Source of the DNA: a virus
DNA length: 24,500 bases
Strand: one strand, 5' to 3'
IMG/VR virus record: IMGVR_UViG_3300042565_002290
Coordinates: 1-24,500 of that record
In this document: piece after piece, positions 6,234 to 24,500 of the stretch
Numbering within the stretch: the first letter of the stretch is position 1
Layout of the letters: the number at the start of each line of letters is the position of its first letter
Position numbers and translations under genes: made by a program
The notes under the pieces: model-generated
Told to the model about the DNA's origin: nothing
The model's input: the letters and a program-made list of their open reading frames with translations, nothing else
The model's database searches: none

Positions 6234-6234
6234 A

Positions 6235-6260
6235 GGTGTAATAATAAATATTAATATCCA
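6235..6260 (+). promoter_or_regulatory. GGTGTA intergenic element, copy 1
   Basis: GGTGTAATAATAAATATTAA begins at 6235, overlapping the bases just after the endonuclease stop. ATG 6281 is 46 bases downstream and has AAGAGGG (6267-6273) as its ribosome site. The same GGTGTA plus AT-rich pattern precedes three other gene blocks. A phage-specific late promoter or operator is possible. Confidence 0.4.
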
Positions 6261-6280
6261 TATTTTAAGAGGGCTCATGC

Positions 6281-6679
6281 ATGGCAGCCAGCAAGTACGA
6301 TTTTTCTATCGAGCAAGGCACCTCGTTTAAGTTGTCATTAATATATAAAGATTCTGAGAGAAACCCAATTAATCTAACCAATTGGTGTGCCAGACTAGTA
6401 TGGAAAACCAATACCAATACTACTCAAGTATTTAGTTCTGAAAATACAGATCACAGTGTATATAAATTCGATGTTGATGATATTGCTGGCAAATTAACAT
6501 TAATGTTTCCAGCTCACACCACCAATAACTTTAATTTTACCACTGCTAAGTATGACTTAGAACTAAAGTCTCCAGATGATTTATATAATGGAGGAGGTAA
6601 ATATACTACAAGAATACTTTTTGGAACAGTCAATATTGTTAAACGATTTAGTCAGAATAATAGCAATTTGGAGTGCTAA
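6281..6679 (+). CDS. Small fibre-base/baseplate-associated protein (copy A)
   Basis: 132 residues, predicted all-beta. The N-terminal half (YDFSIEQGTSFKLSLIYKDS, then NPINLTNWCARLVWK) has the pattern 'beta strand - low-polarity strand - P-I-N/D-L/I-T-N-W-C-A-R' found in small tail or fibre proteins and resembling the N-terminal domain of baseplate upper proteins (BppU type). The protein at 18104 is a clear paralogue over its whole length (TNWCAR, then Y-D-x-E-L and DLY-GGGK). The C-terminus ends NSNLEC with a terminal cysteine. It is the first gene of a block of fibre genes and abuts the next gene (TAA then ATG). A structural role at the fibre or baseplate base is inferred; no enzyme motif is visible. 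Confidence 0.55.
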   Translation: MAASKYDFSIEQGTSFKLSLIYKDSERNPINLTNWCARLVWKTNTNTTQVFSSENTDHSVYKFDVDDIAGKLTLMFPAHTTNNFNFTTAKYDLELKSPDDLYNGGGKYTTRILFGTVNIVKRFSQNNSNLEC

Positions 6680-6931: not shown

Positions 6932-6947
6932 CTTATAAGAGGGTATC

Positions 6948-8615: not shown

Positions 8616-8616
8616 T

Positions 8617-11406
8617 ATGAGAAACGGCAAAATATTTCTAGTCAATGGTGTTCCACGCACTCGACCTCCTGGACCAGCACCTACTCCATTAACTACTTTA
8701 CCGTCTATGACAGTTGGAGGATGGGGTGATCCTCATATGTATATTAGTGTTAGTTCAATGGACTCAAAAAATAGAACAACAACTAAAAATATAGCAACTT
8801 GGGGAGATAATAAGCAAGGTTCGACTGGCAATAATGAATTAAGATTATTGGATTTAGAAACATCTACTCATACTATTAAAGTTTTTTATACTAATAAAAC
8901 ATGGGGCAATGGTGCTAAAGTTATTGATAACGTTCGAGTAGAACTTAATGGTGTTTCAACAACGTACACAAATACCGCTAAAGTTACTGCTGGACCAGTT
9001 AGCTTAAATATACTTAAAAAGGGCTCTGGAGCTAATACATTTTTAGCTTTTGAAATGAGTTGGAACACTATCAATAATGTTGTTAAACTAAGAGGAGCAT
9101 TAACAGTTATTCTTAAAAGAGTAGCAGCTAATAATGGAGTGCCGTGGAACGGAGGAGATGGTAGATTTTGGGATGGTTTTGGAAGAGCCTCATCTGTTTA
9201 CGGCTTAAGTAGAAGTGATTTTGAAACTGGAATAGGTATTCAAAACATTGAAGATGAATTAGAACTATCATCAAATGAAGCAGGATTTTTATCAACTATT
9301 GGAGAAAATTTTATTCGGAATACCAGTATTTTTGATGATATAAATGATCTAGGAGAAAATGGTGAAGGAGATGGCGCTCCAGTACATGTGTGGGATGATA
9401 CCACAGCAGAAGTATTGCAGGTTTTAGGGGATCCTGTTGGATTAGAGGGTGTTGTGGATCAAATAGTTGCATCGGGTACAACAACAACCACCACAACAAC
9501 CACCACAACAACAACGACAACAACAACTAGTACTACAACAACAACCACAACTCCGGCTCCTCCACCTTCGGGCGATCCCTATTTTTACAATGTTGAATTG
9601 TTACTACATTTTGATCATTATCTTGATGTTCAACAAGGCTCTGGAATGATCATTAATAGCGCCAATAGTGATATTGTGTCGTGGTCTCCGGCTGCTTTCA
9701 CAACTATTTCTATGGATCCCGCTGATCTTAGTCCCATTAGCTCTAGTGGAGGAGTTCTCAAAGGAGGAACAGCCAACGATAATAGTCCAAGTATCTTGGC
9801 TTTAGGTTATAATCTTAATACGTCAGGAGATTACACATTAGAGTGGCATTGGAAGAATCCAGCAAATAGCTGGTTTTTGACGGACGGATACGGATTCAAA
9901 CAAGATAAATATCATTTATTTGTCGGCAATTTGGATAGCGGAGGTAAGCACTTATCTTCTTTATATCTTCATCCAGATTTTGGTTATTATAATTTATGGT
10001 CAGTTGATATTACCTCACACACAGGGGTTTGGTCTCATATGGCCATAAGCGTAAATGATGGAGAGACTAGGGTATTTATCAATGGTCAGCAACAAGTACT
10101 AGGTCTTAATTCTCCAGGAATAGGTGGCTATGGTATTAATTATGCTGACGGTTCTGCTTTTGCTGTAACTGGTAATGTTTACAGTGGAGTTATGCCGCTA
10201 GTATTTAGTAATTATCTTCTAGCTGGAGAGTTTAATACTAGAAAAAGTATGGCTTTCCAACATATTAGTAGTATAGATGAAATCAGGTACACTATTGGCG
10301 TTGGTAGATACCTCTCAAACTTTACGCCGCCAACAGGTAAATATCCAGATAGTGGTCCAATTATTGGCCCAGACGCTCCTAAAAATCTTAATGTTTTAAC
10401 AGGAAACAATCAACTAGGTCTTAGTTGGACAGCTCCTCTCAGAAATGGAGGATCAAATATTACAGACTATGTATTACAATACTCCTCTAATAGTGGAACT
10501 ACCTGGACAACATTTAATGATGGGATAAGCACATCAACATCTGGAACAATTACTGGATTAACAAATGGCTCCACTTATATTGCAAGAGTGGCAGCTATTA
10601 ATAGTCAAGCTACTGGTAAGTATGTAACATCAAGTGGTTTTATTCCTAATCCTCCAATAGTTATTACTTCTCAACCATTAAATGATTACGCAACTACGAG
10701 TTCAGAAAACATAACATTTAGCACCACAGCAACCGGAGGAGGAGGTAGTCTAGCATATCAGTGGCAATATTATGGACAAGATTATGCTAATAGTGACTAT
10801 ACCAATGCTTGGAGAGATTTGTCTGGAGCAACTTCTGCTTCTTTCGCTACCAGTGTTGATAATTTAGTTAATACATACGGATTATACGATTTTGATTCTA
10901 ATGGCATCTTACAATTAAGATGCTCAATATCTGCTCCTGGAGGAACTCCAGCAACTACTAATGTTGTTAGATTTCTAAAAATATATTCACTACATTATCC
11001 ATCAGCATACTGGTATGGTAGTAATGGAAGTTCTTCTAACGGAGGTTCTCCGCAAACCATATCTTTACAAAGTGGTGAAAATTTAGTACTAGACCTTTAT
11101 AATTTTAATAATTTTGTTGATACTTCATGGTATAGCGGAAATGATACTACAGTAAAGATTCAGGTAGCTACTACCGGCCCAACAGATAGCGCGGACTGGA
11201 CAGACCTATCCTCACAAGATTCTAGGGGCGGTTTTCAGATTAATGCATATAATATAACTCCATCTACTGGTACTAAATATTATAGAGCTATTGCTCTTAA
11301 TAAATGGCCTTATACAGCAAACAATGGATCAGGTTTCGCTAGTAAAAATTCTCAATATAGATACTATCACGCTGTTTCAGAAGTTATGCAGGTTACATGG
11401 CCATAA
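8617..11406 (+). CDS. Multidomain adhesin: VWD-like, poly-Thr, LamG, Fn3, Ig
   Basis: 929 residues. In order: 1-285 a region opening with GGWGDPHMYISV (34-45), resembling the GDPH start of von Willebrand D domains, followed by strands and a SDFETGIG segment; 288-312 almost pure threonine with one serine, then PAPPPS; about 326-580 a LamG/concanavalin-like domain (VELLLHFD, then TLEWHWKN, VWSHMAISV, INGQQQ and SSIDEIRYT); 586-678 a fibronectin type III domain (PDAPKNLNV, LSWTAP, TDYVLQYSSNSGTTW, ARVAAIN); 679-790 an Ig-like domain (ITSQP, YQWQYYG); then an unassigned beta domain. LamG and Fn3 are carbohydrate- or surface-binding modules in phage fibres. Start ATG 8617 lies two bases after the previous stop. 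The mucin-like Thr stretch lies upstream of a glycosyltransferase gene (11690). The VWD assignment is weak, and cysteines typical of animal VWD are missing. Likely a receptor-binding fibre. Confidence 0.78.
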   Translation: MRNGKIFLVNGVPRTRPPGPAPTPLTTLPSMTVGGWGDPHMYISVSSMDSKNRTTTKNIATWGDNKQGSTGNNELRLLDLETSTHTIKVFYTNKTWGNGAKVIDNVRVELNGVSTTYTNTAKVTAGPVSLNILKKGSGANTFLAFEMSWNTINNVVKLRGALTVILKRVAANNGVPWNGGDGRFWDGFGRASSVYGLSRSDFETGIGIQNIEDELELSSNEAGFLSTIGENFIRNTSIFDDINDLGENGEGDGAPVHVWDDTTAEVLQVLGDPVGLEGVVDQIVASGTTTTTTTTTTTTTTTTTSTTTTTTTPAPPPSGDPYFYNVELLLHFDHYLDVQQGSGMIINSANSDIVSWSPAAFTTISMDPADLSPISSSGGVLKGGTANDNSPSILALGYNLNTSGDYTLEWHWKNPANSWFLTDGYGFKQDKYHLFVGNLDSGGKHLSSLYLHPDFGYYNLWSVDITSHTGVWSHMAISVNDGETRVFINGQQQVLGLNSPGIGGYGINYADGSAFAVTGNVYSGVMPLVFSNYLLAGEFNTRKSMAFQHISSIDEIRYTIGVGRYLSNFTPPTGKYPDSGPIIGPDAPKNLNVLTGNNQLGLSWTAPLRNGGSNITDYVLQYSSNSGTTWTTFNDGISTSTSGTITGLTNGSTYIARVAAINSQATGKYVTSSGFIPNPPIVITSQPLNDYATTSSENITFSTTATGGGGSLAYQWQYYGQDYANSDYTNAWRDLSGATSASFATSVDNLVNTYGLYDFDSNGILQLRCSISAPGGTPATTNVVRFLKIYSLHYPSAYWYGSNGSSSNGGSPQTISLQSGENLVLDLYNFNNFVDTSWYSGNDTTVKIQVATTGPTDSADWTDLSSQDSRGGFQINAYNITPSTGTKYYRAIALNKWPYTANNGSGFASKNSQYRYYHAVSEVMQVTWP
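9478..9552 (+). repeat. ACN trinucleotide tract coding poly-threonine
   Basis: About 25 codons, nearly all ACA or ACC with a few ACG/ACT and one AGT (Ser). It encodes 17 Thr, Ser, then 7 Thr at residues 288-312 of the adhesin. Triplet repeats can lengthen or shorten without breaking the frame, so linker length could vary. The residues resemble an O-glycosylated mucin stalk. Confidence 0.9.
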
Positions 11407-11420
11407 AAAAGGATTAAATT

Positions 11421-11681
11421 ATGATATTAAATTATTCGGTTACTTTAAATACACACAATGAATCATCCATTGTATCCAGTTTAGAACCTGTAATTATAGA
11501 TGATATATCGAAAAAACTTGTTTTAGTTAGGCTCCTCCCATATTTGTCTCCTCTTGTATTATGGAGAGGTGATGATTATGATAATGCTGGAGATTACACA
11601 CAAGCTCAGGTTGAAGAGAAAATTTTAGAGCTAATAGGAAGCAATCCACAAGAGAAGTTACAATCATTAGTTTTATACTAA
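11421..11681 (+). CDS. Small conserved-looking phage protein, unknown function
   Basis: 86 residues. ATG 11421 follows AAGGA by ten bases and begins 14 bases after the adhesin stop; the glycosyltransferase ATG is 8 bases further on. The N-terminal half is beta-like (MILNYSVTLNTHNESS). The C-terminal half has SPLVLWRGDDYDNAGDYTQA and a final helix, which I recall only as a pattern in small tail-gene neighbours. No membrane segment, signal or enzyme motif is seen. It could be a fibre assembly chaperone or a small structural protein. Function unknown. Confidence 0.55.
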   Translation: MILNYSVTLNTHNESSIVSSLEPVIIDDISKKLVLVRLLPYLSPLVLWRGDDYDNAGDYTQAQVEEKILELIGSNPQEKLQSLVLY

Positions 11682-11689
11682 TTTAGTTC

Positions 11690-12541
11690 ATGAGCGAAAA
11701 AATACTGACTATTGGTATGAGTACATACGATGATTTTGATGGTGTGTATTTTACTATACAGTCATTAAGAATGTATCATAAGCTTGATAATATTGAAATT
11801 ATTGTACTAGATAATCATCCAGATGGATCCCACTCAGAGTCATTAAAGGGTTTTTTGAATTCATGGTGTTCTGGAGTAGCTAAATATATTCCAATTAAAG
11901 ATAAGCCATGTTCATTTAATAAATATAAGATTGTGGATTATGCTAATGGGCAGTATATCTTGATCTTAGATTGTCATGTTTTATTAGTAGAAAATTCTTT
12001 AAAAAAATTATTAGAATATTACTCAACTCGCCCAGATTGCAAGGATTTAATTCAGGGGCCTTTACTATATGATGATTTAATTAGCTACGCTACAGAGTTC
12101 AAGGATGAATGGAGAGGAGATATGTATGGTACATGGTATACCAACAAAGAATCCTATGATAAAGGAGAGCCTTTTGAAATCAAAATGCAAGGAATGGGAT
12201 TATGTTCCTTTGAGAAAAAAAACTGGCCCGGTATTTGTCCATCTTTTAAAGGATTTGGGGGAGAAGAAGGATATATAGCCGAAAAATTTAGAAGAAACGG
12301 AGGTAAAAATATTTGTATTCCTCAATTAAAGTGGGTTCATCGATTTGGCCGACCCAACGGAGTTAAATATCCACTAATCTTAGAAGATAGAATATGGAAT
12401 TATTTTGTGGGATGGTTAGAAATTACTAGGGATCCAGACCATCAAATGATAGTTGATACTTATAATCATTTTAAAGGAAGAATTCCTCAAGATAGTTTGG
12501 ATAATATCCTAGAAAGAGCTAAGAATAAGATTCTATCTTAA
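11690..12541 (+). CDS. Family 2 glycosyltransferase, GalNAc-transferase-like DxH
   Basis: 283 residues. GT-A fold features: an N-terminal strand-helix pair (ILTIGMSTYDDFDGV), IEIIVLDNHPDG at 35-46, then LILDCHVLLVE, where D94-C95-H96 takes the place of the usual DxD metal site. DxH is characteristic of polypeptide GalNAc-transferases. GFGGEEGYIAEKFRRNGG (188-205) matches the acceptor/catalytic 'GGE...E..fR..ggG' loop of the same group, and WVHRFG follows. The reaction would be transfer of an activated sugar to an acceptor in the cytoplasm. It directly follows the poly-Thr adhesin and the 86-residue gene, so fibre glycosylation is a reasonable inference, but host surface glycans or another virion protein are alternatives. 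ATG 11690 has only a weak upstream ribosome site. Confidence 0.8.
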   Translation: MSEKILTIGMSTYDDFDGVYFTIQSLRMYHKLDNIEIIVLDNHPDGSHSESLKGFLNSWCSGVAKYIPIKDKPCSFNKYKIVDYANGQYILILDCHVLLVENSLKKLLEYYSTRPDCKDLIQGPLLYDDLISYATEFKDEWRGDMYGTWYTNKESYDKGEPFEIKMQGMGLCSFEKKNWPGICPSFKGFGGEEGYIAEKFRRNGGKNICIPQLKWVHRFGRPNGVKYPLILEDRIWNYFVGWLEITRDPDHQMIVDTYNHFKGRIPQDSLDNILERAKNKILS

Positions 12542-12545
12542 CTAT

Positions 12546-12600
12546 AAAATTAGCCATATTATAACTATTCATTTATCTTGCGGCCGGGTGTATTAATTAT
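12546..12600 (+). promoter_or_regulatory. GGTGTA intergenic element, copy 2 (long form)
   Basis: AAAATTAGCCA (12546-12556), then TTTATC (12572-12577), then GGTGTATTAA (12587-12596), 61 bases before ATG 12648. The 11-mer and GGTGTATTAA recur at 16592 and 16634 with almost the same spacing (41 and 42 bases). A 7-base inverted repeat, ATTATTA/TAATAAT (12599-12616), follows. May be a promoter/operator or a recombination tract. Confidence 0.45.
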
Positions 12601-12647
12601 TATTATAGCTAATAATCGATAACATAGTAATAGGATTATATTTTAAG

Positions 12648-14465
12648 ATGGCCGTAAATGATTTGATCACATTTCGCAAAGGGACAGCTTCAGCATGGAC
12701 TTCGGCCAATCCCGTTTTAGCTAGCGGTGAACCAGGATATGATTTAACGAATGGTGTTCTTAAGATAGGTGATGGTGTTTCTAATTGGGTGGCTCTTAGT
12801 GGAATAGGATCGACTAGTGTTGGTGGGTCATCGTCCTCCTATGTTGGAGTTAGAGGAATAATAAGCACAACAGGAACATTGACCAGTTTTGCAGTATCGG
12901 GAGGCTATCCAGTCGGATATCTGGACCTGTTCCAAGATGGAGTTAAGTTAGTATCAACTTTAGATTTTTCTGCAACAGACGGATCTAATGTTACTCTCAA
13001 TAACAGTGTCCCATCAGGAACAGTTTTAGAATACTTGACAATGGCTTCTGGAGTTTCTTCTGGCGGCGGAGCTTTATCTGGTAGTGTGACGATACCGCAG
13101 CTTGGCGACTATGCATTTTCTTCCGTGTCACTACTACTTCATATGAACGGAAGCGGCAATACATTTACAGATTCTAGTGCTACACCCAAGGCAATCATGG
13201 CGTTTGGTAACGTCACGCAAAGCACGGAGCAGAGTAAATTCGGTGGCAAGGCGGCTTATTTTGATGGTACTGGCGACTACATTCAACTATCGACTCAGAA
13301 CCAGTCTTCACTCCAGTTCAGCACACAACAGCACACAGTCGAATTTTGGTTCAAAACAGCTATCATGCAGCAATACACATGTCTCTTTTATCGAGGCCAA
13401 CAGAGCGAGGCCGCGTACGACTACGTTCTGAACATAAACAACGCTTCTGCGAGCGCTGGCGACTTGGCCTTGTATTCGCTTGGCTTCGGCGGCGCGATGA
13501 CTACAACGTCTGGTGGCTGGAACGATAATGTTTGGCATCATGTTGCAATTGTTCGCGATGCTGGAAACGTGTTTCGTATGTATGTTGACGGCGTTCAGCA
13601 GGCGACTCGCACATACGACATGACTCAGTCTTACAGCAATAGCAGTGACTCCATTATCCGCATTGGCAAGGATGGAGCGTTGTCTGGGCGAGACTACTCG
13701 GGATATATCGATGAGTTACGAATCAGCACGGTATGTCGATATCCAAGTGGTACGTCGTTCGTGCCATCCGCCATTGCGTTCTCAGATGCAGCCGAAGCCA
13801 CGTTCCCCGTCACCATCACTGGCTCGGGAGGTGGAAGTTCTAGTTATGACTCTCGCTGGGACTTGTTTCTGCCACCAGCACCGACCGGACTGACGGCAGC
13901 CGTTGGCAACGCTCAAGCCACTCTCTCGTGGACTGCGCCGACCGTGTTGGCTCAGACGCCGATCACGGACTATGTCGTGCAGCATTCATCGAACAGCGGC
14001 TCGACATGGACGACGTTTAGCGACGGCACCTCGACCTCGACTTCAGCGACGGTCACTGGCCTGACCAACGGCACGGCGTATGTTTTCCGTGTGGCGGCAA
14101 CGAATGACATCGGAACAGGAAGCTATTCGGCGGCATCGAGTGCCGTGACGCCGAATTCGGCGAGCGTTCCTGATGCTCCGACTTCACTGCGAAATGCTGA
14201 CAACTACTGGGGATGTTCGTCTAACGACACTATGTGGAACGCACCAGTGTCTAACGGCGGCTCGGCAATTACGGGATATGTTTGGCGAATCGGTAGCGGA
14301 GCGACGACCAGTGTGGCTCCGTCCAGCGGAACCCGGCCCGCAGGGTCTTATACGGGCGGTTTTATCGACAATCACGCGCCCACCGGCTCGTTCCAAGTTG
14401 CTGCCGTCAATGCCGTTGGGACGGGGCCGTTTGCGTCAATCACTCTTCAACAGGACTGCAACTAA
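12648..14465 (+). CDS. Chimeric tail fibre: Mtd-like N-terminus, LamG, two Fn3
   Basis: 605 residues. Residues 1-50 (ITFRKGTASAWTSA, SGEPGYDLTNGVLKIGDGVS) are the Mtd-like docking domain. Residues ~60-130 (SFAVSGGYPVGYLDLFQDGV, LDFSATDGSNVTLN) are a small beta domain common in phage fibres. 156-385 form a LamG domain (SLLLHMNG, AAYFDGTGDYIQL, VWHHVAIVRD, MYVDGVQQ, YIDELRIS). 409-505 an Fn3 domain (PPAPTGLTA, LSWTAP, TDYVVQHSSNSGSTWTTF). 506-605 a second Fn3-like domain. The first ~145 codons are AT-rich like the rest of the phage. From about base 13085 to the end GC rises above 60% in sampled lines. The composition break within one frame suggests the tip was imported onto a resident base. The stop overlaps the next ATG by one base (TAATG), so the oxygenase is translationally linked. 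Confidence 0.8.
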   Translation: MAVNDLITFRKGTASAWTSANPVLASGEPGYDLTNGVLKIGDGVSNWVALSGIGSTSVGGSSSSYVGVRGIISTTGTLTSFAVSGGYPVGYLDLFQDGVKLVSTLDFSATDGSNVTLNNSVPSGTVLEYLTMASGVSSGGGALSGSVTIPQLGDYAFSSVSLLLHMNGSGNTFTDSSATPKAIMAFGNVTQSTEQSKFGGKAAYFDGTGDYIQLSTQNQSSLQFSTQQHTVEFWFKTAIMQQYTCLFYRGQQSEAAYDYVLNINNASASAGDLALYSLGFGGAMTTTSGGWNDNVWHHVAIVRDAGNVFRMYVDGVQQATRTYDMTQSYSNSSDSIIRIGKDGALSGRDYSGYIDELRISTVCRYPSGTSFVPSAIAFSDAAEATFPVTITGSGGGSSSYDSRWDLFLPPAPTGLTAAVGNAQATLSWTAPTVLAQTPITDYVVQHSSNSGSTWTTFSDGTSTSTSATVTGLTNGTAYVFRVAATNDIGTGSYSAASSAVTPNSASVPDAPTSLRNADNYWGCSSNDTMWNAPVSNGGSAITGYVWRIGSGATTSVAPSSGTRPAGSYTGGFIDNHAPTGSFQVAAVNAVGTGPFASITLQQDCN

Positions 14466-15028
14466 TGAGCGTTATTCTTCTAAGCAATTTTGTTAGCGAG
14501 AGCGAACGAGCCTCACTGCTGGCGTGGTGCGACACCAATGAGGAGTGCCTTGGAAACGCAAGAACTGCGGACGGCGAGTCGTATTTGTTGCGTAAAATCT
14601 CAAACAGCAACGCGGTGGTGGAGGCTGGCGGATTCCCCGAAGTCGCCTATCAGGTGCATGGCCGTATCAGGGAGCGGTTCCCGATGCTGGGGGGCTCGCT
14701 TCAGCGATTCCTAGACGGTATGACGGTTGGTGTTCTCCTTCCCGGCGGAGAGTTTCCAGAACACGTTGACCATCATTTCCGGCAGGACGGTCTGGTGTGT
14801 GTCGGCGTGAACGCATTGCTTTCAGCTCCAGCGTCAGGCGGCGTAGTGAGCGTTGACGGCGTGGAGCGAGAGCAGCAGGAAGGAGACGCGCTGGTCTATC
14901 TTCTGTCGGAACAGATTCATGGAGTCTCTCAGGTTGTTGGCAATGTAAAGAGAGTTGTTTGGTCGTGGCGATTTATGGTCGATCTTGCTACCTGGAACGC
15001 GATGCTAAGTACCTCCTCGAATTCCTGA
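13085..15028. other. GC-rich imported segment 1 (fibre tip plus oxygenase)
   Basis: Counted lines show 38/60 GC at 13441 and 41/60 at 14281, against 15/60 at 15121 just past the right edge. The left edge is inside the fibre gene between about 13080 and 13200; the right edge coincides with the oxygenase stop. Compositional shift and frame continuity are direct observations; acquisition by recombination is inference. Confidence 0.75.
14465..15028 (+). CDS. 2-oxoglutarate/Fe(II)-dependent oxygenase
   Basis: 187 residues, predicted double-stranded beta-helix. The iron triad is visible as H100-x-D102 in EHVDHHF and distal H152 in QIHGVSQV, with R163 (VKRVVWSWRF) in the place that binds the 2-oxoglutarate carboxylate. 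The pattern 'HxD ... Gx2VSVDG...EGDALVYL...HGVS...KRVVWSWRF' is like prolyl-4-hydroxylase-type phage oxygenases. These enzymes hydroxylate amino acids, nucleotides or small molecules using oxygen and 2-oxoglutarate. The gene begins at the last base of the fibre stop (TAATG) and shares its GC-rich composition, so it probably arrived with the fibre tip. It may modify that fibre or another virion protein, such as the collagen-like shaft of gene 18544. The substrate is unknown, and nucleotide or metabolite substrates cannot be excluded. Confidence 0.75.
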   Translation: MSVILLSNFVSESERASLLAWCDTNEECLGNARTADGESYLLRKISNSNAVVEAGGFPEVAYQVHGRIRERFPMLGGSLQRFLDGMTVGVLLPGGEFPEHVDHHFRQDGLVCVGVNALLSAPASGGVVSVDGVEREQQEGDALVYLLSEQIHGVSQVVGNVKRVVWSWRFMVDLATWNAMLSTSSNS

Positions 15029-15060
15029 AGAATTTTATACTTTAACAATCAACACATAAA

Positions 15061-16104
15061 ATGACAAAAGCATACGATAATTCAATACTAGCCCGAAACA
15101 TAAACGTTAGTGGAGTTAATACTAATGTTAGTGGAGTTTTACAACTTAATAATATTAATGTCAGTATTAGTGGACATAATCATACATCATCTGATATTAC
15201 TGATTTTAATAGCTCTGTTAGTGGACTATTACCCACTATAGCTAATAGTGGAGATAATAGAATTCTTACCAGCACAGGATCAGCAGTTGGCATTAATGCC
15301 GAGTCCAATTTAACTTTTGATGGAACTAATTTAACAGCACCATATTTAGTGGCTAGTAATTCTTCTGGCGATGAAGGAGGAGAGATACAATTAGCTAAAC
15401 CTCCAAATGGAACATTATCTGGTGGAATAACCATTGATGCTTATCAGAATAGATTAAGATTTTTTGAACAAGGAGGTAGTGCTCGTGGATTTTATTTAGA
15501 TCTTTCATCTGCTGGTGCTGGTGCTTCTACAAACTTAGCTGTTGACAGGACCATTCATTCTACAAACACCGCTATTGATTGGCTTCCGAGAGGTCACGGT
15601 AGTATCGGTAATGCTGGCGCTACTAGTGGAGGTCTAATGCTAGTATTTTTTACAGCCCCGTACTCGTTCACTGCTACTACTCTGACGTTTGCGGCGGGCA
15701 ACGCTGCCACATCTGGCCTGTCGTTGTGTCGCTTTGGGTTGTTTACTGTTTCCGAGACCATCACCGATAACATTACATTCACGACGCCTACAGTGACACT
15801 GGTTGCACGAACAGCGAGCGACATGACAATCGGAAATTCCACAAATACCTTCTACTCTCGAACCTTTAACACTACCGGTGGCTATCCTGCCTCGTATAAT
15901 ATTGTCGCCGGGACACGCTACGCGGCTGGACTAATACTTGTCGGCACAACGGCTGGCAATTGGCATGCTGCTACGCTTGGCATGGGCTCGATCATGCGAC
16001 TACCTCCTATGGTTGCTGGTTTGGTCACGTCTCTTAGTGATCTTCCAACATCGCCGACAAGCGTGTCTAATGGATCTTTCGTTCTATATGGGAGAATTTC
16101 ATGA
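15061..16104 (+). CDS. Chimeric tail fibre, AT-rich shaft and GC-rich tip
   Basis: 347 residues. The N-terminus lacks the Mtd-like domain and has repeats of NVSG (NINVSGVNTNVSG, then NINVSISGHNH), with DNA copies of GTTAGTGGAGTT at 15106 and 15127. HTSSDITDFNSSVSGLL is shared in pattern with the fibres at 6948 and 16690. Residues ~75-190 (ILTSTGSAVGINAESNLTFD, IQLAKPPNGTLSGGITID, RLRFFEQGG) are typical of fibre shafts. From about base 15650 (residue ~197) composition turns GC-rich and the sequence becomes a different domain with alternating Thr/Ser/Ala strands, probably the receptor-binding tip. No clear Shine-Dalgarno precedes ATG 15061. The stop overlaps the next start as ATGA. Confidence 0.72.
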   Translation: MTKAYDNSILARNINVSGVNTNVSGVLQLNNINVSISGHNHTSSDITDFNSSVSGLLPTIANSGDNRILTSTGSAVGINAESNLTFDGTNLTAPYLVASNSSGDEGGEIQLAKPPNGTLSGGITIDAYQNRLRFFEQGGSARGFYLDLSSAGAGASTNLAVDRTIHSTNTAIDWLPRGHGSIGNAGATSGGLMLVFFTAPYSFTATTLTFAAGNAATSGLSLCRFGLFTVSETITDNITFTTPTVTLVARTASDMTIGNSTNTFYSRTFNTTGGYPASYNIVAGTRYAAGLILVGTTAGNWHAATLGMGSIMRLPPMVAGLVTSLSDLPTSPTSVSNGSFVLYGRIS

Positions 16105-16560
16105 TCACCAATTATCTCGGCATTATCGATGGAATTCGCACTTGGGAAGTGCGTGACGAGAATGGCAATATCGTAGGCATGAATCAACAGGCCGTGGACG
16201 AATCTGTCCCTACGAGCGTCTCCGCTCGCCAGATACGTCTCTGGCTCGTGCGGCATGGCATAAGCCTCGTGCAAGTTGAGACGGCCATAAACGCAATCCC
16301 CGATCAAATGCAGCGAGATCTTGTCAGAGTTGAGTGGGAATACGCTCCCTATGTTGAGCGCACTCATCCCATGTTAATTCCTTTAGCCACGGTGTTGGGT
16401 TTAACTGAAGCCCAAGTCGATCAAGCATTTCGTGAAGCGGCTTGGATTTAGGAGTATTTATGACACTTAAGAGCTTGTTAAAAACTATTACCTATTACAT
16501 TCCTCTTGGCTTTCTCCAGAAAGGAGTTTTTGTTCCCGTCTTCCCGGTGATGAATATGTT
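15650..16560. other. GC-rich imported segment 2 (fibre tip plus companion)
   Basis: Counted lines give 35/60 GC at 15901 and 37/60 at 16201, while the same gene has 15/60 at 15121. The left edge is inside the fibre gene at about 15650; the right edge is near 16560, in the broken micro-gene. Same layout as segment 1: fibre C-terminus plus downstream small gene. Recombination is inferred. Confidence 0.7.
16101..16451 (+). CDS. Small fibre-companion protein (chaperone-like position)
   Basis: 116 residues, mostly helical after a short beta start (MITNYLGIIDGIRTWEVRDE). The core SARQIRLWLVRHGISL, then AINAIPD, RVEWEYAPYVERTHP and LGLTEAQVDQAF is a pattern I recall from small proteins placed after phage tail fibres. 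It overlaps the fibre stop by ATGA and shares its GC-rich composition, so the two are probably translated and inherited together. A role in fibre folding or attachment is the simplest reading, but the family function is unknown to me. There is no membrane segment or catalytic motif. Confidence 0.6.
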   Translation: MITNYLGIIDGIRTWEVRDENGNIVGMNQQAVDESVPTSVSARQIRLWLVRHGISLVQVETAINAIPDQMQRDLVRVEWEYAPYVERTHPMLIPLATVLGLTEAQVDQAFREAAWI

Positions 16561-16599
16561 TTAGATGAGACTACTGGATTATGGATTATACAAAATTAG
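16460..16599 (+). pseudogene. Frameshifted micro-gene after the fibre companion
   Basis: AGGAG lies just before ATG 16460, which opens a 34-residue frame (MTLKSLLKTITYYIPLGFLQ, then KGVFVPVF...). It stops at 16562-16564. In the -1 frame, starting at 16543, the sequence reads PGDEYVLDETTGLWIIQN and ends at 16599. Joining KGVFVPVF to PGDEYVLDE by restoring one base near the CCCGG at 16543-16547 would give an uninterrupted ~46-residue protein that reads naturally. So a one-base loss, or a sequencing error, is likely. No standard X-XXY-YYZ slippery site fits the zero frame. The 34-residue product could still be made. Function unknown. Confidence 0.45.
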
Positions 16600-16644
16600 C
16601 CACTTAATTTAAAATTTATCCCCTTCACTATAAGGTGTATTAAA
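16592..16644 (+). promoter_or_regulatory. GGTGTA intergenic element, copy 3 (long form)
   Basis: AAAATTAGCCA (16592-16602), TTTATC (16615-16620) and GGTGTATTAA (16634-16643), 56 bases before ATG 16690. It matches copy 2 in order and spacing and, with it, flanks the block that contains both GC-rich segments. The 11-mer overlaps the end of the micro-gene. Confidence 0.45.
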
Positions 16645-16689
16645 GACTACTAAGGGCGATATTTATATTAAACCAGTAAAGATTAATCG

Positions 16690-17316
16690 ATGACTTTAAT
16701 AACCGTACGTAAAGGAAATTCTGGTCAATGGCTAGAATCTAACCGTATTCTACAAACTGGTGAACCAGGATACGATCTCTCAAATAGTATACTCAAAATA
16801 GGAGACGGAACATCGTCTTGGACTCAATTACCCCATTATGGCAGTGGACTATTTGCATCAGTTAATCATGTTCATAATACATCTGATATAATAAATTTTA
16901 ATCTATCCATCTCTGGATATTTACAACCTGGATCAGGAATATTATTTAATTTTGTTAATGACAGATTAGTTATTAATGCTGTTAGCACAGGACAAGACTC
17001 TTCTTTAAGAGAACTATTTTTACCACCCGCTCCCACACTATTATATTCTAATATTCAAAGTAATGAAGTTAGCTTAGGTTGGATAGCTCCATCAGCCACA
17101 TGGATACCACCAGTAAATGATTATGCTATACAGTATAGAAGTGGTCAAAGTTTATCATGGGTTAACTATACGGATTATGTCAGTCCTCTAACCAATGTTA
17201 GTATTAGTGGTTTAAGCTATAATATAGAATATCAATTCAGAGTAGCTGCTATAAATGGTGTCGGTCAAGGAACGTGGTCGAGTGGTTTGCCAATTACTCT
17301 AACAGAGCCAATTTAA
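16690..17316 (+). CDS. Short tail fibre: Mtd-like N-terminus plus Fn3
   Basis: 208 residues, AT-rich throughout. Residues 1-50 (LITVRKGNSGQWLESN, TGEPGYDLSNSILKIGDGTS) form the third Mtd-like docking domain in the window. Residues 57-100 (HVHNTSDIINFNLSISGYL) match the short shaft motif of the fibre at 15061. Residues 113-208 are an Fn3 domain (LPPAPTLLYSN, LGWIAP, NDYAIQYRSG, FRVAAINGVGQG). No LamG or other tip is present, so this looks like the base of a fibre whose tip has been lost, or a compact decoy or adaptor fibre. No clear ribosome site precedes ATG 16690. It is followed by a 55-residue protein. Confidence 0.72.
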   Translation: MTLITVRKGNSGQWLESNRILQTGEPGYDLSNSILKIGDGTSSWTQLPHYGSGLFASVNHVHNTSDIINFNLSISGYLQPGSGILFNFVNDRLVINAVSTGQDSSLRELFLPPAPTLLYSNIQSNEVSLGWIAPSATWIPPVNDYAIQYRSGQSLSWVNYTDYVSPLTNVSISGLSYNIEYQFRVAAINGVGQGTWSSGLPITLTEPI

Positions 17317-17351
17317 GTATAGTATTTTTTCTTCTAATATCTAGAGTTTTT

Positions 17352-17519
17352 ATGTCTAAAATTACACAATTACCATTATCTAGTGGACTTAAAAATGATA
17401 CTATTTTTGTAGTAGTACATAATAGTGGAGGAAATCTTGAAACTCAGCAAGTTTCAGCTTCTGGATTGTTACAATTTATATCTCAATATGTACCAGAAAT
17501 ACACGGTGGCGAACCTTAA
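17352..17519 (+). CDS. Small tail-associated protein, 55 residues
   Basis: Start taken at ATG 17352 (MSKITQLPLSSGLKNDTIFV), six bases after AGAG and past the end of the fibre gene, rather than an upstream in-frame ATG at 17274 that would overlap that gene with unlike sequence. Residues 1-20 resemble the 'kItqLp...d.i.vvv' opening of small phage tail proteins, and ETQQVSASGLLQFI gives a helix. It ends EIHGGEP, similar to the C-termini DGGTP and DCGTP of neighbours. It may be a fibre connector. Function unknown. Confidence 0.55.
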   Translation: MSKITQLPLSSGLKNDTIFVVVHNSGGNLETQQVSASGLLQFISQYVPEIHGGEP

Positions 17520-17524
17520 AATGA

Positions 17525-17550
17525 GGTGTATATATTAATTAGTATACTAT
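17525..17550 (+). promoter_or_regulatory. GGTGTA intergenic element, copy 4
   Basis: GAGGTGTATATATTAATTAG lies from 17523, 47 bases before ATG 17572, immediately after the previous stop. Same GGTGTA plus AT-rich pattern as copies 1-3. It opens the connector-giant fibre block. Confidence 0.4.
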
Positions 17551-17571
17551 CTCTAACAAAAGGACCGTATA

Positions 17572-18087
17572 ATGTCTTGGCAAACAGAAATTCCTATTAT
17601 TGTACGTACTCTTGTGAATGATTGGTCAGATCAGCCGGTTTATAGTGACGACCGATTAATTCAAGTTATAAGTGTTGCAGCAAAATACGTTCAATTTGAT
17701 GTGGTTTTAGATCATCAATATTTGGTGGATGTTGTTAGTCCAAATATTACTCCCGATCCTACTGATGATAGGGATGAAATTTTTATTAGTTTAGTTTCAT
17801 TAAAGGCAGCTTGTTTAGTAGATCAAAGTACCTATCGAACAAAGGCCGCTACTGAAGGTATACGAGCGGCACTCGGTCCGGCTAGTTTAGCTGTTAACGG
17901 ACAAAGTGGAGCCTGGAAAACAATACTAGAACAAGGACCTTGTGCATTATATGAAGAGTTAACTTCTCACTGGGATGTTAAAGATGCCAGTGCTATTGCT
18001 GCTGTTCTTAGTCCTTTCGTTGGCAATAAGTTTAACCCTCGATATTTACAAAATCACGACTATCGATCAAGATATTTTTACTCATAA
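17572..18087 (+). CDS. Probable neck/head-tail connector protein
   Basis: 171 residues, mainly helical. WQTEIPIIVRTLVNDWSD, YSDDRLIQVISVAAKYVQFD and LVSLKAACLVDQST give a helix-turn-helix-rich N-terminal half of the sort seen in HK97 gp6/SPP1 gp15-like connector proteins ('sDdrL...i..Aa.yv'). The second half has SHWDVKDASAIAAVLSPFVG and a basic, Tyr/Arg-rich end. It lies before a small fibre-base protein, far (13 kb) from the portal-capsid genes that usually precede connectors, the gap being filled by fibre genes. It starts a new block after element copy 4. The connector role is inferred from pattern and gene type. A minor tail protein is the alternative. Confidence 0.5.
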   Translation: MSWQTEIPIIVRTLVNDWSDQPVYSDDRLIQVISVAAKYVQFDVVLDHQYLVDVVSPNITPDPTDDRDEIFISLVSLKAACLVDQSTYRTKAATEGIRAALGPASLAVNGQSGAWKTILEQGPCALYEELTSHWDVKDASAIAAVLSPFVGNKFNPRYLQNHDYRSRYFYS

Positions 18088-18103
18088 GTAAAGGATACTC
18101 ACA

Positions 18104-18547
18104 ATGCCAGCGGCTGAATATAATTTTAGCATAGAAAAAGGTACAGCTTTCGTCATCGCTTTTGAATATAGGGATGATCTTCAAATTCCTATCGATATTA
18201 CTAATTGGTGTGCCAGAATACGCTGGATAGAAGACCAGAATACAAATCCAACTATTAGAACATTCATAACGAATACTCAAACCAATGATTACTCTTTTGT
18301 TATAGATCCTAAGCTTGGTAAAATAATACTAAAAATACCAGCATCAGCTACAGCCGCTTATAATTTTAATAGTGCTCTTTATGACTTTGAACTTCAAGAA
18401 CCAAATGATCTTTATAGTGGAGGAGGAAAAAAGATTTTTAGAATCTTACAAGGAACCGTGTCATTGGTAGCCAGGAACGTACCTGGAAGCGATGCTTTTG
18501 CTTGCGATACCAATGTTCAGAATGATTGTGGAACATGTAGCCCATGA
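18104..18547 (+). CDS. Small fibre-base/baseplate-associated protein (copy B)
   Basis: 147 residues, a full-length paralogue of gene 6281: YNFSIEKGTAFVIAFEYRDD, PIDITNWCARIRWI, YDFELQEPNDLYSGGGKKIF align directly with that protein. Copy B is 15 residues longer, ending in a cysteine-rich tail (ACDTNVQNDCGTCSP). ATG 18104 follows AAAGGA by eight bases. The stop overlaps the giant fibre start as ATGA, so the two are likely translated together, and this protein may sit at that fibre's base. The duplication, with each copy before a different fibre system, suggests one attachment protein per fibre type. Cysteines may be for disulfides or metal. Confidence 0.6.
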   Translation: MPAAEYNFSIEKGTAFVIAFEYRDDLQIPIDITNWCARIRWIEDQNTNPTIRTFITNTQTNDYSFVIDPKLGKIILKIPASATAAYNFNSALYDFELQEPNDLYSGGGKKIFRILQGTVSLVARNVPGSDAFACDTNVQNDCGTCSP

Positions 18548-21500
18548 GTATTGTACGAGTAGAAGAAGATATACAGCCACTAAAATATTTAGTAGTTACA
18601 CAACAAAGAGATCCAGAGAGTGTTATCACTACTAATGTAGTTATATCCGATACTCGTAATAATAGAATTAATCTTGTTTCCATTGAAAAAGGTCTCCAAG
18701 GAGATATTGGTCTCGTCGGCCCCAAAGGAGACCCTGGAAAAGATGGTGTTATTTTTGATGTATTACCAATTAACAGCGGTGGTACAAATAATACTATATT
18801 TAGTAGTGGACACGTCATTTATTATGATGGGTCTAAATTATCTAGCAGTAATTATACCATACAAGACATATTAAATAATGCTGGTAACAGTAGTAATCTC
18901 ACAGGTATTATTGCAGAGTCGGGTTTATATGTAAATTTAGTTAATAATAATGCTAGATTAGGAGTAAAAACTGGAGGAGGATTAACAATAAATGAACAGA
19001 ATACTATTGTTGTTGATGATACAATAGTTAGAAAAGTTGAACTTAATTTAGGAAGCATCGAAGGAGTGGTTCCTATTGAAAAAGGAGGAACAAATAATCA
19101 ACTATTCAATAGTAACAGATTGTTATATTATGATGGATTTAAGATAGCCTCGTTCCCCCTTGCAACAGGACGCATACTATTAAGTGGAACAACTATAGAT
19201 ATAGTAGCGGGATCTGGACTAGTTGGAGGAGGATTAACATCTTTGCCGTCAGGTTCTGTTGTTTTAAATATTGGTGGATCTTCCGATATTCTGGTAGAGA
19301 CTAATTCCATATCTTTGAGCAATACCGGGATTGCAGGAACATATAATAAAATAACTACTGATGAGAAAGGACGTGTCGTATCTGGTTCTAATTTATCTGC
19401 TTCTGACATTATTAGTATTCTAAATTATACTCCTTGGCATATTGGTAATGATGGCGAAAACTCTGGTCTTGATGCTGATTTATTGGACGGTCAACAAGGA
19501 TCATATTATTTAGATTTATCAAATAGTACTGGTATTCTTAGTGCTGATAGTTTACCAGTACAATCAGCTCCGGGTCTATATACTAAAGTACAGGTAAACA
19601 ATAAAGGAATTGTGATAAATGGACAAGATATTAATTATGGAGACATAGTTAATGCTCTAGGGTATAGGCCAGTATCAGCTACAGGAGATATTATATACGG
19701 CCCACTAACTATTAATGGAAATACTACTCTTGATGGTAATGACCTAGTTGTTAAAGATAATTTACCATTACTGGGCACAAATTCCCCGTTTATACTACCT
19801 AATGAGCCTAGAGGCTTCAGTTTTATGTATGGGGGACTTACTCCTCAAACTGGTATATTGGCTTACTATCCCGGTGAAAGAGAATTGAGATTAATAACCA
19901 ACATAGGAGCTACTGGTATAGTAGATGCTGGAAGTGGGGATAATTTTAATAATGAAGTAGATGGAGGAGACGCTAATTCTGTTTATGTGATTGGAAATAT
20001 TACTGGTGACATGAATATAGTACTACTTCGTTCAGTAGCAGATAGCTTATATGTTAGTCGATTTGCTGATCAAACCATTAGCGGTAATAAAACTTTTGCA
20101 GACCCTCTTGCTGTAAGAGGTCAAATTTCTGTAATTCCTAATATTAATCAATCAACTCCTCCATTTAATGTTGGAGCAAATACAAGAATGGTGGAGAATC
20201 TTAATGTCGATCTTCTCCATGGCAAAAATTTAGATTATTATAATGATGCTTCTAACATGACTGGGCTTTTTAATTATGAAAAAGTTCAGTTTAATAGTCT
20301 CGAAGGAACCATTGGTTTTATACCTCGTTTTGATAATAGAACTAATAATCCCAGTAGAACTATTAGCGATTCTGTGATTCAGCAAACCGGACAAATTGTA
20401 AGAGTAAATAATAATTTTAATTTTTCTGTTGGAACTTCTAACACTGGATCATTTGATGCAAATCGTTCCGCTCTCATTGGACAAAACAACAGAATTATAG
20501 GAGATAACTCGCTTGCTGTCGGTTCAAATAATTTAGTTAATGCTAATAACAGCATAGCCCTAAATTCAAAATCACAAGCTCTCACTGATAATTCTATAGC
20601 TGCCGGGAATCATGGTTACACTTGGTCTGAAAATCAAGTAAGTTTTGGGTCTTTCAGAGAGCTTAATAATATATCTACAGCTCAAGGTCAACACTCTACT
20701 ATTACTCTGGGTCTTAGCGGAGTACAAACTGATGGAGCTTGGGTAAATATGAGCCCGTCCATCAATATTCCAAAAAATAAAACACTATCATATACATTAG
20801 AAGTATTGATGAACAAAGCTGCTGGCACGGGAGCTGCTTTATTTACATACGAAAGTGGTATTATTAAAAATTCAACATTCCGTAATCCAAACAACCCGTC
20901 TTTTCTAACTAATATTACTTCGATATTAAAAGATGCTACAAAAAGAGAAATATATAACGACTCACAAAGAAGAAGATATTATTATCATTTTAATTTAGAC
21001 AATAATAATTTTATACAGAACTTAGATGTTACAGCTCCAGACATTAAAACATTAGATATTAAACCATATAACACAGAATCTTTATACAAATATATTCCAC
21101 AGTATATTGAATCCTATGGAACATACGAAAAAACTAACGATGGAGAACTGGTCTTAAATATTCCTAAGCCAATAACATATGGTTGGTTCTATCAAAATTC
21201 AGGAAGTCCAGACATAATAGTTAAATCATACTTTCATGGTATGACTACGGGGTCTGTCTCACGCCTCAATTTCACTTCCGCAACAAAACACACCCCGTTT
21301 TCAAAGCAGTATCAAGTATCAAGCATTATCAGTGATACCCTCTTTTCTGTTAAAGAAACATCTTGGTCTGGAAGATTAACTAACGACGAACTAATACTAG
21401 ATCCACAAGTCGTATCTGATATAGATTCTAAAAATAGTATAATAACAAATGCTGGATTTTTATATACTAATTCTCCGGATATCTATAATGTTCCAACAAA

Positions 21501-24500
21501 CATTACTAATGTTTTACATACTGGTATGTATGTCAGATATTATCCACACGGATCAGGCTATTCATATGTAGTTCCTCAAACTGGTAAAATTATAGCAAAA
21601 ACTAGTAGTTCGATTACTTTTGATACTCCGTTTACAGGGCTTACAATATTTAATCAGTCTATTAACACTCAAGCAGTATTAGAATTTACACAATATACTA
21701 GACATGTTTTTGATTCGTCTAAAACAGTACATCTTAATATTTCTGGCTATGGACAGCAATCATTAACTAGCTTATCCGGAGCGTATGCGGCATCATACTG
21801 TGGACAACCAACATACTCTATTAAATTATCTGGAATACCTAATAATATATTTACTGATACTATAGCCACAATAAGGCCAGCCACAACTAATAGTGGAACA
21901 GTTTCTTTGGTTTCTCATAGAAATATTAGCGGAACATATACTAGAGATGCAACTCAATACAAAAAATATGAAGGTATTTATATAAGACAACCTTCTATTA
22001 GTGGAAATAGCAGAATTTCTATTTATAACCAAAATTTAGAACCGATAGAGCTACCCTCTGTTCCATTCAACTATAGCTTTGTCTGTGGATACGGAGATGA
22101 TGATAACGGATCTTTTGAAATATATAAATCTGGACTATATAGCTATCTAAAATTTAAATCAGTATCAGGCATAGACATTTCTTTATCTTGCGGTCAAGAT
22201 TTTGATTATGTTTATAAAGTAGCTAATTTAATGGATGTTTCATATATTAAAAATTATTTATATGGAATAGATTATGATTTACAACAAAGTGGATGCTATT
22301 TCTATAGTCAATATCCAGTAAATAGTGGTGCAGGATATGTGTTTTACCCAGATACTTTAGAAACTTCGGACCTTACAGCTCTGCCACTGGGTTTGCTTCC
22401 AGATAAAACATATTTTCCAGTTAATATAAAATTAGTTAATAGTTCATATATATTTGATTTAAGTAAATCGTCTGGTGGACAACCAATTACTATTATTAAT
22501 GACAATAATAGAAAGTCCTCATATAAAATTTTTCCAAGAATACGAGACGCTTATAATAAAGATATATACAATATACGTATTAAAGTTTTTGATATGTCTG
22601 GCAGAAATTATGAAAAACCATTCTCTATACACATAGATCCTGTTAACGTCAGAACTCACATCAGGAATTCTATACCAGACCAATCGGCAATAATAAATGA
22701 ACTTTTTACTTATACTATACCTAATAATACTTTCCCTAATAAAACAAAAATTTCATCAGTTAGACTTTCTGATGGTAGAGTTTTACCTCAATGGCTTGCC
22801 TTTGATCAATCCAAACAAGCATTTAGCGGTACTCCTTTAGCTGCAAATTCTGGAACAATAGAATTATTAGTTAAGGCTACGGGGGTTGATCTGATTGTAT
22901 CTGATGTGTTTAAGTTGTCTGTCACAGATAGTTCTCCATCGATTTCAAACTACATTGTTGATCCAGTATTATCATTTGATATAAAAAACATCTTTCTGTC
23001 TAGCATATCTGTTCCTCAAAATGCTTCTTATGATACACACGTTGGTAAATTATCTGCCGACGGAGGATATAATCCTTATTTAATTTTTAAAACCTCATCT
23101 AATAGTTTTAATGGATATTCTCATTTTGGAGGAAATGTTTTGACGGAATGTTCGGCATCTATTAGTCAGTTTTCCACCGTTACATTATCTGGTATTATTC
23201 CTTATCTATCTGGGCATAACATACTAGTTAGTGGTACGAATAATCAGTCTCAGCAAATAGTAAGTAAGATTGTACCGTCTTCTATTTTTAATATTACTGT
23301 GTCTTCTGGTTCTAACTTTTTATTATTTAATAATCCAAATAGTAATTATACTGGTATAATTTTTAGTGGTAATAAAATTTTTAGCAATATTCAAAATTGG
23401 GACAATAATTACTATGCTACAAATGTTACAACTACTGGTATTTATCTTAATAGAAATTTTACTAATCTTAATAGCGAATCAACAGGACTAACCTGTTTTA
23501 CTAGTGGTTATAATATACTGTTAAATTCTAATGTTAATTTTACAGATAATATTATTGGAATTTTTAGTACCCCAATTAATGAATCTGGTTTTTATTATAT
23601 TGATCAGCTCAAAAACTTTACTACAAATTATCAATCAGCTACAAGGTGTCCAGTTACATTATCTAATAATGATAATATTAAGGGTTTTGATACCGAAACA
23701 AACGAATATATTATAGAAAAAGGATATTATTCTACTGGTTTAATTTCATTTTATACAGACGTTGGCTATAGTGATATTTCTATTAGCAGTCCAGAGCATT
23801 TAAATTTCGAAAATGATGAAAGTAGCGTTTATTTAAGATTCTTATCAAGAAATACTGGGGTTTTACCCACAAGTCAGGGATATTCTAAGATAAGCGGAAT
23901 AGCTCATTCATCTTTTAATGTAAATAATGGATACTTCTTTCCCAACTCTCAACCCTATGCAACAGGATCTGTGCTAATTAATGTTGACAAAAATCACGGA
24001 TACAAACTTGCAAACAATAATGTTGTTAATCAGATACCTGTACAATTTTTAGATACTCAGGAAAATAATAGCAATCGTAAACCAAAGAATAATCTTTTTG
24101 ACATAGATGATATTCAAGGAAATACTATATATGTTAAAGATAAAAATAATTATCTATTAAAAGAAATTGGTAAACCAGATTATTTTGAACAAGCGATATC
24201 TGGCACCTATACTACTAACGGTTTTGGCTTTAGTGCTGCTTTTGTACACAACGACTACAAAATTTATGACTTAGATTACGGAGGTTCTCCAATATGGCCT
24301 CAAGATAAAATAATAGATGTTAATTCTTCTCTTGGGTCATCTAGTTCGAGCTTGGTTTCTAATTCTAGATTACTAGATTTTACTCAGGGATTCTTTTTTA
24401 ATGGAACAGTAGTTAGAAGCGGTTCTCACATAGTATACAATGGAACTTTTCCATCCTTAGTATATTCTGGATATGCTATGTCTGTATTTAGTACTGATCC
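18544..24500 (+). CDS. Giant tail fibre, at least 1985 residues (3' end outside window)
   Basis: The frame from ATG 18544 (MSIVRVEEDIQPLKYLVVTQ) has no stop to the window end; I read every codon. The start overlaps the previous stop (ATGA). Domains: 50-68 a collagen-like run of six Gly-X-Y triplets (GLQGDIGLVGPKGDPGKDG); 75-99 and 177-201 two copies of P-I-x-x-GGTNN ... YYDGxK; ~309-322 LDADLLDGQQGSYY and 555-566 VDLLHGKNLDYY, tail-fibre repeat motifs; ~365-400 YGDIVNALGYRPVSATGDII; 508-518 ADQTISGNKTF; 643-691 YadA/Hia-head-like repeats (GDNSLAVGSNN, NNSIALNSKSQ, DNSIAAGNHG), an adhesin fold; 700-1370 unassigned beta-rich sequence; 1378-1468 a cadherin-like He_PIG/CADG domain (DQSAIINELFTYTIP, LPQWLAFDQSKQAFSGTP, DVFKLSVTD); 1470-1985 unassigned, Asn/Ser/Gly-rich. 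Very long fibres reach or bind the host surface. It is uniformly AT-rich, unlike the chimeric fibres. Confidence 0.85.
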   Translation, partial: MSIVRVEEDIQPLKYLVVTQQRDPESVITTNVVISDTRNNRINLVSIEKGLQGDIGLVGPKGDPGKDGVIFDVLPINSGGTNNTIFSSGHVIYYDGSKLSSSNYTIQDILNNAGNSSNLTGIIAESGLYVNLVNNNARLGVKTGGGLTINEQNTIVVDDTIVRKVELNLGSIEGVVPIEKGGTNNQLFNSNRLLYYDGFKIASFPLATGRILLSGTTIDIVAGSGLVGGGLTSLPSGSVVLNIGGSSDILVETNSISLSNTGIAGTYNKITTDEKGRVVSGSNLSASDIISILNYTPWHIGNDGENSGLDADLLDGQQGSYYLDLSNSTGILSADSLPVQSAPGLYTKVQVNNKGIVINGQDINYGDIVNALGYRPVSATGDIIYGPLTINGNTTLDGNDLVVKDNLPLLGTNSPFILPNEPRGFSFMYGGLTPQTGILAYYPGERELRLITNIGATGIVDAGSGDNFNNEVDGGDANSVYVIGNITGDMNIVLLRSVADSLYVSRFADQTISGNKTFADPLAVRGQISVIPNINQSTPPFNVGANTRMVENLNVDLLHGKNLDYYNDASNMTGLFNYEKVQFNSLEGTIGFIPRFDNRTNNPSRTISDSVIQQTGQIVRVNNNFNFSVGTSNTGSFDANRSALIGQNNRIIGDNSLAVGSNNLVNANNSIALNSKSQALTDNSIAAGNHGYTWSENQVSFGSFRELNNISTAQGQHSTITLGLSGVQTDGAWVNMSPSINIPKNKTLSYTLEVLMNKAAGTGAALFTYESGIIKNSTFRNPNNPSFLTNITSILKDATKREIYNDSQRRRYYYHFNLDNNNFIQNLDVTAPDIKTLDIKPYNTESLYKYIPQYIESYGTYEKTNDGELVLNIPKPITYGWFYQNSGSPDIIVKSYFHGMTTGSVSRLNFTSATKHTPFSKQYQVSSIISDTLFSVKETSWSGRLTNDELILDPQVVSDIDSKNSIITNAGFLYTNSPDIYNVPTNITNVLHTGMYVRYYPHGSGYSYVVPQTGKIIAKTSSSITFDTPFTGLTIFNQSINTQAVLEFTQYTRHVFDSSKTVHLNISGYGQQSLTSLSGAYAASYCGQPTYSIKLSGIPNNIFTDTIATIRPATTNSGTVSLVSHRNISGTYTRDATQYKKYEGIYIRQPSISGNSRISIYNQNLEPIELPSVPFNYSFVCGYGDDDNGSFEIYKSGLYSYLKFKSVSGIDISLSCGQDFDYVYKVANLMDVSYIKNYLYGIDYDLQQSGCYFYSQYPVNSGAGYVFYPDTLETSDLTALPLGLLPDKTYFPVNIKLVNSSYIFDLSKSSGGQPITIINDNNRKSSYKIFPRIRDAYNKDIYNIRIKVFDMSGRNYEKPFSIHIDPVNVRTHIRNSIPDQSAIINELFTYTIPNNTFPNKTKISSVRLSDGRVLPQWLAFDQSKQAFSGTPLAANSGTIELLVKATGVDLIVSDVFKLSVTDSSPSISNYIVDPVLSFDIKNIFLSSISVPQNASYDTHVGKLSADGGYNPYLIFKTSSNSFNGYSHFGGNVLTECSASISQFSTVTLSGIIPYLSGHNILVSGTNNQSQQIVSKIVPSSIFNITVSSGSNFLLFNNPNSNYTGIIFSGNKIFSNIQNWDNNYYATNVTTTGIYLNRNFTNLNSESTGLTCFTSGYNILLNSNVNFTDNIIGIFSTPINESGFYYIDQLKNFTTNYQSATRCPVTLSNNDNIKGFDTETNEYIIEKGYYSTGLISFYTDVGYSDISISSPEHLNFENDESSVYLRFLSRNTGVLPTSQGYSKISGIAHSSFNVNNGYFFPNSQPYATGSVLINVDKNHGYKLANNNVVNQIPVQFLDTQENNSNRKPKNNLFDIDDIQGNTIYVKDKNNYLLKEIGKPDYFEQAISGTYTTNGFGFSAAFVHNDYKIYDLDYGGSPIWPQDKIIDVNSSLGSSSSSLVSNSRLLDFTQGFFFNGTVVRSGSHIVYNGTFPSLVYSGYAMSVFSTD

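Follow-up and report, generated by a model that had tools for sequence, protein, structure and literature searches.

A giant gene of uncultured large tailed phages, with YadA-like, cadherin-like and CADG modules, most likely encodes an adhesive fibre

What kind of protein is encoded by a gene so long that it runs off the end of a viral genome fragment? The window analysed here, a 24,500-base IMG/VR fragment, ends within such a gene (18544..24500, + strand, as are all features of this gene given below). The frame 18544-24498 (+) was open from its ATG to the window end without a stop (1,985 codons), in agreement with the initial annotation, which had described an open frame of at least that length; at 32% GC, a random frame this long has a probability of about 1e-68. 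A 99%-identical contig (L002) completes the gene at 10001-22570, with no stop codon in the sequence past base 24500 before the C-terminus is reached at 4,189 aa, and the window thus contains the 5' 1,985 of ~4,189 codons. Residue numbers follow the L002 protein, whose numbering is that of the window up to residue 1985. Where both cover the gene, the window and L002 differed at 26 bases. Most of these differences (22 of 26) fell within the last 600 bases (window 23906-24498), a clustering near the assembly break that suggests recombination or strain mixing.

Complete copies were recovered in 12 distinct homologues including L002 (4,009-4,690 aa), the eleven others lying on divergent phage contigs and sharing 33-69% identity with the L002 protein. 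All but one were of similar length (4,009-4,221 aa), the remaining homologue reaching 4,690 aa, and dN/dS values of 0.12-0.17 in all five pairs tested indicated purifying selection. The twelve intact homologues and these ratios rule out a chance reading frame or an assembly artefact; the giant frame is a real gene.

The protein has the fibre-type repeats of phage tail or side fibres, as well as an N-terminal domain in common with another fibre. This domain (residues 1-49; 18544..18690), a putative virion anchor, was conserved in relatives and has a paralogue at the start of the fibre encoded next downstream (in blastp, residues 14-69 matched this 383-aa protein with E 2.5e-7 and 41.5% over 65 aa). 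It is followed by a collagen-like segment (residues 50-68; 18691..18747) that the initial annotation had also named; its Gly-X-Y pattern was kept in 9/9 aligned relatives, with the qualification that it consists of only six triplets, too short for Pfam, and the window protein had no Pfam Collagen match. Stalk motifs (LPINSGGTNN, VPIEKGGTNN, DADLLDG and NVDLLHG) extend over residues 74-566 (18763..20241). In tblastn searches, the stalk region (residues 70-600) gave short matches to tail fibres of the Sinorhizobium phages phiM12 and phiN3 and to a virion structural protein of cyanophage S-TIM66, and the giant protein also matched the tail fibre family phrog_8443 (E 0.004). The GGTNN and DADLLDG motifs and these tail-fibre matches confirmed the phage fibre repeats seen earlier, and together with the complete frames in relatives they uphold the description of the locus as a giant fibre gene.

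Beyond the stalk, YadA-head-like beta-roll repeats were located at residues ~625-705 (20416..20658). Their pattern was conserved in nine relatives; the Pfam YadA_head match (E 0.0015, 19.3 bits) fell under the curated cut-off of 25 bits and is suggestive only, with weak matches in 3/9 relatives. A YadA-like beta-roll is a plausible identity for this region. The roll might be taken to indicate a trimeric autotransporter adhesin that the phage encodes and the infected cell displays on its surface. However, Pfam searches of the complete homologues detected no YadA_anchor, the C-terminus being instead a copy of an Ig-like repeat (see below), and a YadA-type autotransporter was rejected on this ground. 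In addition, the N-terminus is of fibre type and without an evident signal peptide, and the gene is located within a structural cluster, making this reading extremely improbable.

The central region was examined by hhalign self-comparison of the giant protein, in which the best score of the reversed-profile null was 33. A small beta-barrel repeat was detected with scores of 39-44 near residues 966-1033 (copy 1; 21439..21642), 1515-1642 (copy 2; 23086..23469) and 1889-1991 in L002 (copy 3, of which the window holds the start; 24208..24498). AlphaFold2 (AF2) runs on residues 745-1930 and 3085-4189 were mostly of low confidence (mean pLDDT 37 and 50), with two barrel copies moderately confident within an otherwise poor model. 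Copy 1 in the AF2 model resembled small beta-barrels of a phage tail tube (9n71; 74 residues aligned at rmsd 2.1, Z 8.3) and of the LKA1 tailspike (Z 7.2). Unrelated barrels such as UPF1 were matched too, so that these similarities would speak to the kind of fold rather than to its role, and, given the poor models, can be considered leads only; matches in BFVD had very low TM-scores and were set aside. The previous statement that over a thousand residues resist assignment was thus correct with respect to Pfam, and in need of revision for the part now accounted for by the repeated small beta-barrel and by a cadherin-like repeat.

This cadherin-like repeat occupies the first half of a variable slot (residues 1180-1480), where the alignment of relatives has more gaps than anywhere else. 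In the window, the repeat (residues ~1180-1366; 22081..22641), recognized by alignment to relatives, is split by a ~130-aa insertion and had no Pfam match on its own; Pfam Cadherin matched in 4/9 members (best E 2.4e-4). The second half of the slot contains a CADG/He_PIG domain (residues 1374-1460; 22663..22923), for which the Pfam match (E 5.9e-10, 39.9 bits) exceeded the cut-off of 24, and the profile of the same residues matched alpha-dystroglycan (9c3c; E 7.7e-10). The cadherin-like CADG domain of the initial annotation was hence confirmed by two libraries, with the match above the curated cut-off at 1374-1460 lying inside the stretch 1370-1475 singled out there. He_PIG was matched in 4/9 members, and the slot of five relatives holds the cadherin-like segment alone. 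Because a CADG-like stretch could also be aligned in L054, at 33% identity the homologue furthest removed, loss of the domain in the L014-L019 group appears more likely than a recent gain. Within the slot, dN/dS was highest in the pair L018/L019 (0.57) and was raised in two other pairs.

Past residue 1460, no sequence match in Pfam or the PDB was obtained with the complete homologues, the C-terminal quarter or the whole-protein profile. Self-comparison of the L002 protein by hhalign nevertheless detected, beyond the window end, four copies of a ~90-residue repeat (2565-2655, 2892-2980, 3136-3223 and 4097-4188), with scores up to 56.7 against a reversed-profile null of 33, the last copy forming the C-terminus of the protein. 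An AF2 model of residues 3120-3242, of moderate confidence, aligned with Ig domains at Z 8-9 (for titin M3, 6hci: Z 8.0, rmsd 2.8, 91 aligned), while none of the four copies matched the Pfam Ig families. The model points to an unannotated Ig-like domain. A C-terminal intramolecular chaperone, also sought following the initial annotation, was not found by sequence in the complete homologues; their C-termini had no Pfam match to Peptidase S74, a search that a divergent type could escape. About ten cysteines in residues 3169-3679 of the L002 protein were invariant across nine relatives, an apparently atypical trait among phage fibres that might reflect disulphides or metal binding.

The neighbourhood of the gene bears on where such a protein might sit in the virion. 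In the near-identical contig, the order is terminase, portal, capsid protein, fibre island, 171-aa gene, phrog_1084 gene and giant gene; then come the 383-aa fibre, further fibre genes, small genes that are probably for the tail and, last, the tape measure, such that the giant gene lies between the capsid and tape-measure genes. After the giant gene, L002 and the other homologous contigs encode a collagen-tipped fibre of ~384 aa with the common N-terminal anchor. Immediately upstream, a 147-aa phrog_1084 protein (18104..18547, +) overlaps the giant gene start in an ATGA, an arrangement kept in 10 of the 11 homologues listed. This protein matched phrog_1084 (E 3e-13) and, with E 5e-4, phrog_3304, whose annotation reads 'L-shaped tail fiber protein assembly'; it is a candidate fibre-assembly or adaptor protein. 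Its paralogue, a second phrog_1084 protein (6281..6679, +; 43% identity, E 4e-38), is encoded close to where the other fibre island begins. The 171-aa conserved core gene (17572..18087, +), beside the giant gene's operon and in the same order in L054, had no family match; a head-tail connector would be a guess.

The fibre island between the capsid protein and the 171-aa gene spans ~13 kb (window 4530-17571) and comprises Mtd_N, fn3 and LamG fibres, a homing endonuclease and a glycosyltransferase. A 187-aa gene at window 14465-15028 had no family matches, its near-identical start also occurring in L055; its pattern recalls, as an impression only, 2-oxoglutarate oxygenases. The tape measure of a relative (L057:3810 to L058:849, contiguous in record G010) is 5,679 aa long, which at ~1.5 Angstrom of tail length per tape-measure residue would make the tail about 850 nm long. 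The phage group also encodes, 3' of the tape measure, a second beta-roll protein of YadA/antifreeze type with 1,456 aa (L058:849-5219; Pfam LbR_Ice_bind, E 1e-6).

The island is missing in L054, where the capsid protein, 171-aa, phrog_1084 and giant genes follow each other directly. This placement of the operon directly after the capsid protein would be consistent with a fibre attached to the head or neck, as whiskers and capsid fibres are, and providing weak, broad surface adhesion like Hoc-type Ig domains, with receptor binding left to proteins encoded after the tape measure. The tape measure does come later, followed by proteins of 1,456, 533, 1,828 and 2,612 aa, some of them large and fibre-like, that could be tail-tip parts, and the domains of the cluster are predominantly Ig-like, fn3 and LamG. 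Gene order is, however, a mere hint to virion position, and the weak phrog_3304 similarity of the neighbouring protein points instead to L-shaped tail fibre assembly; we regard head or neck attachment as a possible, tentative alternative. Its fuller form, in which a single 4,000-4,700-aa chain with an undescribed Ig-like family at its end and an exchangeable mid-chain cadherin/CADG slot would tether the phage to its host over a long range, independently of the receptor-binding apparatus of the tail tip, seems rather unlikely. Since the tail genes lie downstream of the giant gene and further very large proteins are encoded after the tape measure, the giant protein need not be a tail fibre, and on present gene order tail, neck and head positions would all be compatible.

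Divergence has been much quicker in the fibre than in the capsid protein: capsid proteins were 94-95% identical where the giant fibres were only 46-53% identical, and in L054 the corresponding values were 87% and 33%. This fast divergence, along with the 4,690-aa homologue and the turnover of the CADG slot, suggests adhesion and argues against a structural decoration or spacer of the tail shaft with little binding role. The similar length of 11/12 homologues and the strong purifying selection throughout would fit such a decoration, which we nonetheless consider improbable. The C-terminus was not the most variable part of the protein, unlike many receptor-binding tips, and this weighs against an adhesive fibre. 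No close relatives were found among 50,697 cultured phage records beyond the short stalk stretch, and a search of prokaryote genomes for a host link returned none; in Bacillus phage G, whose capsid protein is distantly related, no such giant gene lies beside the capsid gene. The phages of this group are large, tailed and uncultured, and the collections searched contained no cultured member.

Overall, the gene most likely encodes a giant virion-attached adhesive fibre of these phages, with host adhesion as its probable role. The complete frames and purifying selection in the homologues, the fibre motifs and tail-fibre matches, the anchor common to the adjacent fibre, the Mtd_N, fn3, LamG and collagen fibre neighbours, the CADG domain, the variable slot, the repeats above the null, and the fast divergence relative to the capsid protein all support this reading. 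In such a fibre, the N-terminal ~50 residues would plug into the virion at a site common to the next fibre gene, and a thin, probably trimeric stalk would be built from the collagen-like clip together with the fibre repeats, which reach to ~600. From there, the YadA-like beta-roll, small beta-barrels, cadherin/CADG modules and Ig-like domains would extend the binding surface away from the virion as far as the C-terminus, keeping the phage attached to glycans or proteins of the host surface. Gain, loss and remodelling of the slot at 1180-1480 between phages could vary this binding; if true, mid-chain cadherin/CADG swapping instead of tip variation would be an unusual way to vary phage adhesion. 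The availability of complete homologues across a whole uncultured phage group makes the architecture, the module turnover and the Ig-like repeat comparable and testable.

Several known systems share parts of this architecture. The initial annotation considered YadA-type repeats uncommon in phage fibres; this was not supported, as they are annotated in ~2,230-aa structural proteins of cultured cyanophages and are also reported in pelagimyophages (PMC6224464, PMC9146016, PMC7029224). The YadA-domain structural protein ORF108 of S-TIM4 (2,235 aa) acquires mutations in the course of host adaptation (PMC6224464), its counterpart in S-SZBM1 was identified in the structural proteome by mass spectrometry (PMC9146016), and mixed YadA, collagen, Mtd and concanavalin sets were reported in pelagimyophages (PMC7029224). 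Like the giant fibre, a predicted structural protein with a suggestive YadA-like roll, S-TIM4 ORF108 and the annotated YadA-domain structural protein SShM2_102 of cultured cyanophage S-ShM2 are very long structural proteins with YadA-like content, but they are about half its length, and the N-terminus of the S-ShM2 protein is of the Mtd_N type, as in another fibre of this window and not the giant fibre. The YadA region of the giant fibre had no sequence match in cultured phages. A stretch of its stalk (residues 264-348) is 40-61% identical to the tail fibres of Sinorhizobium phages phiM12 and phiN3, although these match only 2-4% of the window protein and are without adhesin modules. Residues 1374-1460 belong, by Pfam and the alpha-dystroglycan profile, with dystroglycan-type CADG/He_PIG domains, here placed within a phage fibre; our limited literature search found no description on point of CADG in phages or of giant phage fibres. 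Ig-fold domains on phage virions, as in T4 Hoc and gut phage adhesins, are probable weak adhesins (PMC13370021, citing Fraser et al. 2006); the giant protein, a predicted structural protein, similarly has putative Ig-like domains, whereas its four C-terminal copies are outside all Pfam Ig families. The giant fibre would thus belong to a known class of modular phage fibres, in which large YadA-domain structural proteins had already been recognized, and would extend it by its length, its CADG/cadherin slot and its unannotated Ig-like repeat.
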